Below are positions 60,433 to 64,000 of a DNA stretch of 64,000 nt, in pieces. Origin of the DNA: Methylothermaceae bacterium. Lineage in GTDB: Bacteria; Pseudomonadota; Gammaproteobacteria; Methylococcales; Methylothermaceae. Under the pieces are notes generated by a model. It worked only from the letters and a program-made list of their open reading frames with translations. It was not told the DNA's origin and did no database searches. A program made the translations under genes and the position numbers. Location: NCBI GenBank assembly GCA_026981855.1, contig JALSIB010000029.1, positions 62,001-126,000 on the forward strand, in the 5' to 3' direction. The number at the start of each line of letters is the position of its first letter. Position 1 is the stretch's first letter.

Positions 60433-61941
60433 ATGTTGCTGGATTTGATCACCCGTTACCGGGGTGTTTTCGTCACCCTTTTCGTGCTGCCGCTCTCGCT
60501 TCTCTTCAAGGGCTATATGGGGGCGCGCAACCGGCTGGCCTTCTGGCTCGACAGCGCGCCCGGCAAGCACGGGCAGAAGGTGGTCCGGGTACAGGCCCAG
60601 GTGAGGGACTGGAAGGCGCGGACAGGGGGTGCGGTCCCCATGTGCACCGCCAGGCCGGGTTGGCAGGCCATGTCCCTCAAACAGGGGAATTACAAAAAGA
60701 CCCATTACCGGGTCAGGATCAATCTTCCCGACATTCTGGAGATCGACGAACGGAAGAGGACGGTGCGGGTCGAGCCCATGGTGACCATGGGGCAGATCAC
60801 CGCGGCCCTCAATCCCCTGGGGTGGACCCTGGCCGTGGTGCCGGAGTTGGATGCCCTGACGGTGGGTGGGCTGGTCAATGGTTTCGGAATCGAATCCTCC
60901 TCCCATAAATACGGCCTGTTCCAGCACATCTGTGAAGGTTTCCAGATCGTCACCGCCGACGGTGCCTGTGTCCGCTGTTCCAGAGAGCGGAATCCGCAGT
61001 TGTTCCACGCCATTCCCTGGTCTCATGGTTCTCTGGGTTTCCTGGTGGAGGCGGAGCTGAGGATCGTTCCGGCAAAAAAATATGTCCACCTGACCTATCT
61101 GCCCTACCGCTCGAAAACGGCGTTCCTGCGGCGCTTCGCCGAGGAGTCGTCGAAACCCTTCGAGCAGGCCGCCGATTTCATCGAGGGGTTGATGTTTTCG
61201 GACGATACCGGAGTGCTGATGCTGGGGAATTTCTCCGACCAGGTGCCGCGGGGGAAGCGGAGAAACGCGATCAATCGTTTCTGGAAGCCGTGGTTCTACG
61301 AACACGTGCGGTCGTTTCTGCGGCAGGGACAGGGGGGCGAAGAATGGATTCCCCTGCGGCATTACTATCATCGCCATACCCGCTCGTTTTTCTGGGAGAT
61401 GCAGCAGATCATCCCTTTCGGCAACCATCCCCTGTTCCGCTATTTGCTGGGCTGGATGTCGCCGCCGGAGATCTCCCTGCTGAAACTGACCGAAACCCGC
61501 AAGATCCACGAACTTTATGACAAGTATCATATGGATCAGGATTTTCTGATTCCCATGAGTGCCCTGGAGTCGTTCTTGTCATTTTTGCGCCGGGAGGTGA
61601 GTTTCTATCCGTTGTGGCTGTGCCCGGCCAGGATTTTCGATGCGCCGCTGCGTGGTTTCGTCCATCCGGCACCGGGTGAGGAGATGTTCGTGGATGTGGG
61701 CATTTACGGCGAGCCTCAGGTGGTGCCTTATCACGCTGAAACCACCACCCGAAAATTGGAGGCGTTCGTCCGCCGGGTGCGGGGCTTTCAGGCGCTCTAT
61801 GCGGATACTTACCAGACCCGGGAGGAGTTCCGGCAGATGTTCGATCATACCCTGCTCGACCGGGAGCGGGTGCGCACCGGGGCGGTGGGCGCCTTTCCCG
61901 AGCCCTACGACAAGGTCTCCCGTAAGGCCAGGGCGTACTGA
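60433..61941 (+). CDS. Delta-24 sterol reductase (DHCR24-like), FAD-dependent
   Basis: DHCR24 enzymes reduce the C24 double bond of the sterol side chain with FAD and NADPH. The 502-residue product (human DHCR24 has 516) starts at the ATG at 60433, six bases after GGAGGG. An N-terminal membrane helix (LFVLPLSLLFKGYMG) precedes the FAD-binding domain, with RVEPMVTMGQITAALN near residue 115, GIESSSHKYGLFQHIC near 155 and WSHGSLGFLVEAELRI near 200. The C-terminal half has PLRHYYHRHTRSFFWEMQ near 305, LYADTYQTREEFRQMFD near 460 and FPEPYDKVSRKARAY at the end, matching the vertebrate protein block for block. It faces the oxidosqualene cyclase gene tail to tail. Confidence 0.92.
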   Translation: MLLDLITRYRGVFVTLFVLPLSLLFKGYMGARNRLAFWLDSAPGKHGQKVVRVQAQVRDWKARTGGAVPMCTARPGWQAMSLKQGNYKKTHYRVRINLPDILEIDERKRTVRVEPMVTMGQITAALNPLGWTLAVVPELDALTVGGLVNGFGIESSSHKYGLFQHICEGFQIVTADGACVRCSRERNPQLFHAIPWSHGSLGFLVEAELRIVPAKKYVHLTYLPYRSKTAFLRRFAEESSKPFEQAADFIEGLMFSDDTGVLMLGNFSDQVPRGKRRNAINRFWKPWFYEHVRSFLRQGQGGEEWIPLRHYYHRHTRSFFWEMQQIIPFGNHPLFRYLLGWMSPPEISLLKLTETRKIHELYDKYHMDQDFLIPMSALESFLSFLRREVSFYPLWLCPARIFDAPLRGFVHPAPGEEMFVDVGIYGEPQVVPYHAETTTRKLEAFVRRVRGFQALYADTYQTREEFRQMFDHTLLDRERVRTGAVGAFPEPYDKVSRKARAY

Positions 61942-61969: not shown

Positions 61970-64000
61970 TCAGTGGTTTCTGTCTTGCCGATAGCTGGAA
62001 AAGTATCTGCCCAGGGCCCAGATGGGGAAGACGTTGCGGTAGGCGGTATAGGTGATGGCGCAGGTATGGTTGAAGACCCCGGAAATCCCTTCCTGGGGCC
62101 AGTCACCGTTTTCTTCCTGTCTCGTCATCAGGAAGCGGATGCCTTTTCGAACGGCCGCCGTATCCGGGCAGGCCGCCGCCATCAGGCTGAGCAGCGCCCA
62201 GGCGGTGTTGACGATTTGCGACTTGGCATGGGGCACGTATTCTTTCCGCAGGCAGGACTGGAAGGCTTCCCCCCAGCCTCCGTCCCCGTTCTGCCGGTCC
62301 AGCAAAAACCGGCAGGCCCTTTGCAAGTGGGGGTCGGCGCGCAGGGCGGCGGTGCCGCCCGCCTGTTTCGCCGCCGCGGCCAGCGCTTCCACCGCGAACC
62401 AGGTGCCGTAGGTGAAACACACGCCCCAGGAGCCGAACCAGCCGCCGTCTTGGCGTTGTTTGGCGCGGACGAAGCGGAGGCCGTTTTCGATCGCCCTGTC
62501 GATTTCGCCACGCCGGTAGCGGGGGTCTGACTCCCGGTAATGGAGCAGGGCCTGAATACAGGAGGCGGAGCATTCGGTATAGGAATAGTCGATCATGATA
62601 TCGCGGAAGATCGCCGCGGGATTGAGCAGTTCCAGCCAGGCCGGTCCCCGCGTGTTTTCGTAGCTGGCCCAGCCGCCATCGGGATTTTGCAGCGAGAGGA
62701 TGACATCGACCGCATCCTGCAATCTGTCCCGGCCGATGGGATTGGATCCGGCGGCCTCCAGCACCCCCGAGCGGTGGACCAGAAGCGTGGCATGGAGGCC
62801 CAGGGCGGTGCAGTCGGAGATCGGCCAGCCGTGAGGGCGGGTCGAGAACGGCCAGGCCCCCTTGGAAATGTGACGGAAGAAGCGTTCCCTGTCGGCGACC
62901 TCTTCCCTGAGCTGTTGCCGCTCGATGAACCGGTAGGCTTTCCTGACCACTTCGGGGAAGTGGCGCTCCATGCCGTTTTCGACGATGGCCTGGGTGGCGA
63001 AGCCGGTGTCCCACAGCTGGGAGCCGTTGTAGCCGTTCATTTTCATCCCGTCTTCGGCCACCCACAGGTAATCCGCCCAGCGCTCGACGTGTTTCCGGAA
63101 TTGCGGCGAGTCCTTGCCGTGGGCGTGCCAGATGCAGATCGAGTTGATCACCTGGTTGACCGGTCCGATATCTATGTATTCCGTCTGCCGGTCTTCCGCG
63201 TCGATGTATTCCAGGATGAATTTCAACGCCCGCTTTCGCAAAGGACGCAGATGGATGCTTTCATAACCGTCGAGAAACACGTTGAGGGTTTTCAGCAAGG
63301 GGGAGGGCGGGTGAAAAAGATCGGTGCGGGCGACCCGGTCGCGGGCGGCCCGCCAGTCGATGGTGGCGTAGTCGCAGGGGTACAGTTCCTGCCTCAATGC
63401 CCGGGTGACCTCGGTTTCGGAAGCGGTGACCCGGTGGCCGAAACAATAGGACATGGGCAGATAGACCATCCGGCAATGGCACCAGTAGCGCCAGGGGTGA
63501 ACGGGCAGAAAACGCGGCAACAGCCACATTTCCGGCATCAGGCTGTGATTGCCTTCCCAGGCGTAGACCCCCAGCACGGATAGGTAGAATTTTCCCCACG
63601 GCGGAATGCCGGTGGCGCCGCCCTGGCTCAAGATCCATTCCCGCGCCCGGGTCAATTCCGCATTGCCCGGATCCTCGCCCAACAGCCGCAACGCCACATA
63701 TTGGAGCACGGTGGTGAACAGCACGGAGGCCCCCTCCAGATGCAACCCCCAGCCGCCGTCGTCGTTCTGGTGGTTGTACATGTAGCGTTTCATCAGGGTC
63801 TGATGGGGCGGTGGAAAAGGTGCTCCGGTGATATGGGAAGCGATGACGAGGCCCGGCAGCAGGAAATGAGGACCGCCGTAATCGCCGGGCCAGTGGCCGT
63901 CGTCCCTTTGCAGACGGCGATAGAAATCGATACCGCGATGGGTGGAGAGAAAGGCCTGGTTGGCCAGAGGATCGCCCGACTCCTCCGGGACTGTTGCGGT
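61970..64000 (-). CDS. Oxidosqualene cyclase (cycloartenol/lanosterol synthase type), 5' end cut off
   Basis: Oxidosqualene cyclases fold 2,3-oxidosqualene into a protosterol. About 676 residues are visible; the frame is open to the window edge, and by comparison with human lanosterol synthase about 45 N-terminal residues are missing. The catalytic acid is in GWPISDCTALG (Asp codon 62813-62815), where the family usually has DCTAE; squalene-hopene cyclases would have DxDD instead. QW repeats are present (DDGGWGLH, NPDGGWASYE, RQDGGWFGSWG, GDGGWGEAF, NGDWPQEG), as are WCHCRMVYLPMSYC and WGVCFTYGTWF. Residues Tyr (63029-63031), His (62831-62833) and Ile (62819-62821) match those of plant cycloartenol synthase. 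Product not proven. Confidence 0.93.
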   Translation of the reverse strand, partial: TATVPEESGDPLANQAFLSTHRGIDFYRRLQRDDGHWPGDYGGPHFLLPGLVIASHITGAPFPPPHQTLMKRYMYNHQNDDGGWGLHLEGASVLFTTVLQYVALRLLGEDPGNAELTRAREWILSQGGATGIPPWGKFYLSVLGVYAWEGNHSLMPEMWLLPRFLPVHPWRYWCHCRMVYLPMSYCFGHRVTASETEVTRALRQELYPCDYATIDWRAARDRVARTDLFHPPSPLLKTLNVFLDGYESIHLRPLRKRALKFILEYIDAEDRQTEYIDIGPVNQVINSICIWHAHGKDSPQFRKHVERWADYLWVAEDGMKMNGYNGSQLWDTGFATQAIVENGMERHFPEVVRKAYRFIERQQLREEVADRERFFRHISKGAWPFSTRPHGWPISDCTALGLHATLLVHRSGVLEAAGSNPIGRDRLQDAVDVILSLQNPDGGWASYENTRGPAWLELLNPAAIFRDIMIDYSYTECSASCIQALLHYRESDPRYRRGEIDRAIENGLRFVRAKQRQDGGWFGSWGVCFTYGTWFAVEALAAAAKQAGGTAALRADPHLQRACRFLLDRQNGDGGWGEAFQSCLRKEYVPHAKSQIVNTAWALLSLMAAACPDTAAVRKGIRFLMTRQEENGDWPQEGISGVFNHTCAITYTAYRNVFPIWALGRYFSSYRQDRNH

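Follow-up and report, generated by a model that had tools for sequence, protein, structure and literature searches.

The window, a stretch of 64,000 nucleotides from a Methylothermaceae draft genome, carries most of the gene for an intact oxidosqualene cyclase of the cycloartenol-synthase type. Bacterial cycloartenol synthases are already known; here a real and intact cyclase of this type is found in a methanotroph. Judged from its sequence, the enzyme is rather likely to be functional and to make cycloartenol, from which the DHCR24 homologue encoded beside it is predicted to form cycloartanol, these two being probably the successive products of the window's pathway. The features concerned are listed below in window coordinates unless a contig (C29) or locus (L006) is named.

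61970..64000, minus strand: oxidosqualene cyclase with cycloartenol-synthase-type triad, 3' 676 codons; the gene runs to position 126243 of contig C29 of the window genome (G000)
63029..63031, minus strand: codon of Y442 (human T381, AtCAS1 Y410)
62831..62833, minus strand: codon of H508 (human C449, AtCAS1 H477)
62819..62821, minus strand: codon of I512 (human V453, AtCAS1 I481)
62813..62815, minus strand: codon of D514, the catalytic acid (human D455)
62801..62803, minus strand: codon of L518 (human E459), a Leu common only to the congener's cyclase
60433..61941, plus strand: homologue of the DHCR24-type FAD-dependent reductases that act on the sterol side chain (delta-24), 502 amino acids; reading frame open from 60352; PF01565
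C29, about 126535-128034, past the window: squalene epoxidase, upstream of and divergent from the cyclase; PF08491, 272 bits
L006:10080-13019, just past the window end: HpnN-family RND transporter beside the epoxidase; TIGR03480, 904 bits

The cyclase and its active site

The window end truncates the cyclase gene, its 5'-most 243 bp lying past base 64000. The likely start is an ATG at that distance (MKEFWKYW...), giving a product of 757 amino acids. From the earliest possible start on the 188 kb contig the frame is free of stops and comprises 795 codons, and residue numbers (Y442 and following) are those of this 794-residue frame. A phmmer search aligned 661 residues with human lanosterol synthase (1w6k) at about 50% identity and an E-value of 1.9e-219, and profile search placed the protein among the oxidosqualene cyclases (PF13243, 214.6 bits; PF13249, 171 bits); its score lay above the cut-off of TIGR01787 (714.7, cut-off 322.7) and below that of TIGR03463, osq_cycl (752.6, cut-off 851). 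D514, C515, C595 and H293 correspond to the human catalytic residues D455, C456, C533 and H232, and the active-site positions checked (H232, C456, C533, W387, F444, W581, F696 and others, human numbering) were intact. The two-barrel fold was present in an AlphaFold2 model (pTM 0.83, mean pLDDT 77.6), whose best PDB matches were the human enzyme structures 1w6j and 1w6k (TM about 0.8). Loop 444-474, ahead of the catalytic motif, had a pLDDT below 50, and the model was built on an alignment of nine sequences, for which reason its site geometry was left unused.

The motifs GYNGSQLWD and HGWPISDCTAL are encoded at 63034-63008 and 62833-62801, respectively, on the minus strand. Both were gap-free in phmmer and MAFFT alignments with 1w6k, in which Y442, H508, I512, D514 and L518 fell on human T381, C449, V453, D455 and E459; the enzyme thus has the Y/H/I of cycloartenol synthases at human positions 381/449/453. 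In Arabidopsis, Y410, H477 and I481 lie within KMQGYNGSQ and TADHGWPISDC (PMC7060231), i.e. within the same two motifs, so that the window trio occupies these positions. The initial annotation had equated the Tyr, His and Ile with CAS1 410/477/481, where animal lanosterol synthase has Thr, Cys and Val, and had named an alignment as the check; both alignments bear out this assignment.

In cycloartenol synthases the trio is invariably Y, H and I, and substitutions at these sites affect the deprotonation at C-19, while the Y,N,V triad of Saprolegnia yields lanosterol alone (PMC5101207). Among bacteria with lipid data, I453 goes with cycloartenol and V453 with lanosterol, with no exception (Wei et al. 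2016, PMC4919349). Given the invariance of Y/H/I and the match of I453 with cycloartenol in bacteria, cycloartenol is predicted for the window cyclase. D514 would protonate oxidosqualene, and Y442, H508 and I512 would guide the final cation such that the C-19 proton is lost and the 9,19-cyclopropane is closed.

The Leu following DCTA, regarded as an oddity in the initial annotation, is real and lies at human E459, but it is a lineage marker common with the congener, and the site is variable elsewhere too. Both Methylothermaceae cyclases have Leu; the other sequences have E, with D in two Bacteroidota and K in four. Lys at this position was seen in L093, L107, L113 and L117, from Bathymodiolus methanotrophic symbionts/Methyloprofundus. 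The Leu as a sign of a broken enzyme was rejected on account of the low dN/dS and its retention in the relative. Compared with the cyclase of the congener (G005), which is 75% identical, dN was 0.17 and dS 1.40; this purifying selection indicates that the enzyme works on some substrate. A decaying or unexpressed gene that provides no functional sterol cyclase in vivo is therefore very improbable, all the more as the frame is intact, the catalytic set is complete and the cluster order is preserved in two genomes. Such a case is nevertheless suggested by Corallococcus coralloides, which has a squalene epoxidase and a cycloartenol synthase yet is sterol-free (PMC4919349), and by the occurrence of the cyclase in just two of ten congeners.

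Neighbouring genes and the predicted pathway

The DHCR24 homologue lies downstream of the cyclase and is convergent with it, the two stops being 28 bp apart. It is 83% identical to its counterpart in the congener and 48-51% identical to methanotroph proteins in loci L056, L071, L085 and L098 and genomes G016, G027 and G012, which places it in this group; several DHCR24-type relatives in other methanotrophs sit in sterol clusters. Among solved structures, no DHCR24 was matched, just general FAD_binding_4 enzymes. DHCR24 homologues are present in Methylobacter, which saturates the side chain, and none occurs in Methylosarcina lacus, which does not (Wei et al., PMC4919349); in plants, cycloartanol is formed from cycloartenol by SSR2 (PMC7060231). 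Substrate supply for a cycloartenol synthase is encoded next to the cyclase, the epoxidase matching squalene monooxygenase 6c6n with E 1.4e-89, and squalene synthase and squalene-hopene cyclase (SHC) are encoded elsewhere in the genome. The proposed route would lead from squalene via oxidosqualene to cycloartenol and, by reduction of the side chain by the DHCR24 homologue, to cycloartanol.

The HpnN-type transporter beside the epoxidase is followed by bioC, and its score against the sterol transporter BstA was only 162 bits. Another HpnN, with which it is 40% identical, adjoins the SHC gene on contig 7 together with squalene synthase. The gene order DHCR24-cyclase-epoxidase-HpnN-BioC is preserved in L038. 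In both Methylothermaceae genomes the HpnN-type transporter stands beside the epoxidase, where Methylobacter (L056) has BstA. The epoxidase-side paralogue may have been recruited from hopanoid transport to sterol transport and may move the sterol.

The bacterial cyclase that makes arborane triterpenols is reportedly the Eudoraea enzyme, which is listed by Wei et al. as lanosterol-type. Prediction of the product from residues can fail, since according to a title cited in PMC10070321 a bacterial oxidosqualene cyclase yields arborane triterpenols. For the window cyclase, a non-sterol triterpenol of arborane-like or other skeleton is a far-fetched product, as the checked active-site residues are of the sterol type and an epoxidase and a side-chain reductase homologue flank the gene.

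In the window genome, a draft of 60 contigs that is 99.15% complete, searches for P450/CYP51, ERG4/ERG24, 8,14-sterol reductase (8,14-Bsr) and a Rieske protein as large as SdmA gave no match. For 8,14-Bsr, the search used the L056 protein encoded between CYP51 and the cyclase, verified by six residues (Y37, Y43, Y78, Y80, D133 and D136) named in PMC13277303; according to this 2026 paper, 8,14-Bsr is present in all sterol-producing methanotrophs. The CYP51-ferredoxin and 8,14-Bsr that mark the methanotroph lanosterol pathway were thus both missing from the window draft and both present in G005. A search with PF08498 gave no match anywhere, controls included, and matches to PF04116 were generic hydroxylases. 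With the demethylation enzymes missing, cycloartanol would be the end product. pmoA likewise gave no match in the draft, which hence has gaps, and this bears on the gene absences. Since pmoC lies on the cyclase contig (C29:142894-143619, 17 kb off), pmoA was probably lost in a repeat-operon assembly gap, and a non-methanotrophic host was rejected. In Methylomonadaceae, CYP51 and 8,14-Bsr were found in the flanks of all 19 long Y/N/V loci and of three of the eight long Y/Q/V loci, as compared with none of the 17 long Y/H/I loci; this contrast tracks taxonomy and is therefore not independent evidence. The genes kept and lost in the window genome support cycloartenol as a better fit than the lanosterol route usual among methanotrophs.

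The congener G005 has a Y/H/I/L cyclase with its epoxidase and DHCR24 neighbours retained, and also a CYP51-ferredoxin fusion and 8,14-Bsr, which share one contig of 3.8 kb. In L122 (G005 contig 374), the frame of the 8,14-sterol reductase is broken by undetermined bases in the assembly. Contamination as the source of the CYP51 contig was unsupported: within the limits of its 3.8 kb, GC (0.55) and tetranucleotide profile lay inside the range of G005's own contigs and outside that of the other methanotrophs compared. The module is either a leftover, or acts on a cyclopropyl sterol, or else the Y/H/I/L enzyme yields lanosterol.

As the congener with the same triad keeps this C-14 demethylation module, some probability, though a low one, is given to a Y/H/I enzyme that yields lanosterol or a mixture of lanosterol, cycloartenol and parkeol, other changes such as Leu for E459 altering deprotonation. 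The DHCR24 homologue would then form 24,25-dihydrolanosterol in the window genome, and CYP51 and 8,14-Bsr would act in the congener. Both of these enzymes, which stand with the same cyclase type in G005, were characterised on the lanosterol route, and the Leu is unusual; in addition, two myxobacteria have another mark next to that for lanosterol in Table 3 of Wei et al., by which mixed products may occur (PMC4919349). However, no I453 bacterium tested by Wei et al. made lanosterol, the trio is described as invariant in cycloartenol synthases (PMC5101207), and CYP51 is weak evidence, since the cycloartenol makers Stigmatella and Cystobacter also carry homologues and C-14 demethylated sterol was not seen in Cystobacter fuscus (PMC4919349). 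These myxobacteria weaken the CYP51 objection to cycloartenol as the product without removing it.

Distribution and ancestry

Cyclases were surveyed in 80 named loci and in 311 genomes of the order, 115 of which had a sterol-type cyclase. In the order survey, residues were read from the best 30 of the 115 loci, the rest being at most 56% identical over the matched part; these remaining matches belong to families f8 and f4, sampled members of which all had V453. Among the cyclases read, Y/H/I occurred within the order only in the window genome and in G005 (evidently locus L038). I453 was thus seen in no other Methylococcales cyclase read, in agreement with the contrast to lanosterol-type methanotrophs drawn in the initial annotation. 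All 76 Methylomonadaceae-type sequences, some of them redundant between the two collections, had Y/N/V, the commonest triad in this family, or Y/Q/V. H477N and I481V in AtCAS1 reportedly shift the product towards lanosterol, and, from their residues, the triads of Methylomonadaceae resemble a naturally occurring form of this change. Seven Methylococcaceae sequences had A/H/V. Three Methylomonadaceae cyclases (L174, L177 and L194) had one TAG listed within the matched stretch.

Bacteroidota cyclases had mostly Y/H/I, and Y/H/V in six. The latter were the Fluviicola-like L057, L059, L060, L073, L104 and L111, among which Glaciecola L062 with Y/H/I was nested; V and I apparently switch inside this clade. 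Cycloartenol has nevertheless been reported from Fluviicola taffensis (Wei et al. 2016, PMC4919349).

The cyclase tree comprised 61 rows without plant, heterokont, Dictyostelium and myxobacterial cycloartenol synthases, the plant and myxobacterial enzymes being compared via published residues only. The two Methylothermaceae cyclases grouped together (100) and fell outside the clade of Methylomonadaceae (100), among Bacteroidota sequences on a poorly resolved backbone. An origin of the window cyclase as an offshoot from within the Methylomonadaceae clade was rejected, that clade being monophyletic without it. In AU tests, a single clade for all Group 2 methanotroph cyclases was not rejected on the cyclase alone (p 0.227) and was rejected on cyclase and epoxidase together (p 0.024). 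The window epoxidase was closest to Bacteroidota (up to 53% identity, versus 46% for Methylomonadaceae), and the divergent layout of cyclase and epoxidase is common with Bacteroidota loci, in which squalene synthase intervenes. The joint test, the epoxidase affinity and the layout favour, but do not prove, a separate acquisition of the pair, which would derive from Bacteroidota-like stock apart from the lanosterol-type cyclases of Methylomonadaceae.

The plant/diatom cycloartenol synthase (AtCAS1, EC 5.4.99.8) has the same trio in the same two motifs and DCTA with the catalytic Asp, whereas the window gene is bacterial, stands beside an epoxidase, has Leu at E459 and lacks the plant demethylation genes. 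Bacteroidota cyclases of this type resemble it in Y/H/I, 50-58% identity and a divergent epoxidase; they differ in the squalene synthase between epoxidase and cyclase where examined, in E or D at 459 and, in the loci read, in having no DHCR24. The lanosterol-type enzymes of Methylomonadaceae (Group 2d, Wei et al. 2016) come from the same order and have about 50-54% identity and Tyr at 381, but carry V453 together with N449 or Q449 and are co-directional with the epoxidase, most loci carrying CYP51 and 8,14-Bsr. The Methylococcus Group 1 lanosterol synthase (MCA2873 type) shares the DC[TA]AE motif and an epoxidase in the genome, but is only about 40% identical, with A/H/V, W230Y, F103M and other changes.

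We tentatively propose, as a less secure reading than the product prediction itself, a methanotroph lineage in which a horizontally acquired cycloartenol pathway ending in cycloartanol replaced the lanosterol one; the congener would demethylate the cyclopropyl sterol directly or have an unknown cyclopropyl isomerase.

Implications for methanotroph sterols

Sterols serve as sediment markers of methanotrophs and eukaryotes, and cycloartanol is a cyclopropyl sterol otherwise known in plants and algae. A literature search found no paper on sterols in Methylothermaceae. If a methanotroph makes cycloartenol or cycloartanol, it would be an extra bacterial source of a plant-type sterol, and at least three acquisitions of sterol cyclases within Methylococcales would be suggested. 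The relatives with and without CYP51 offer a natural test of whether I453 alone fixes the product in bacteria.
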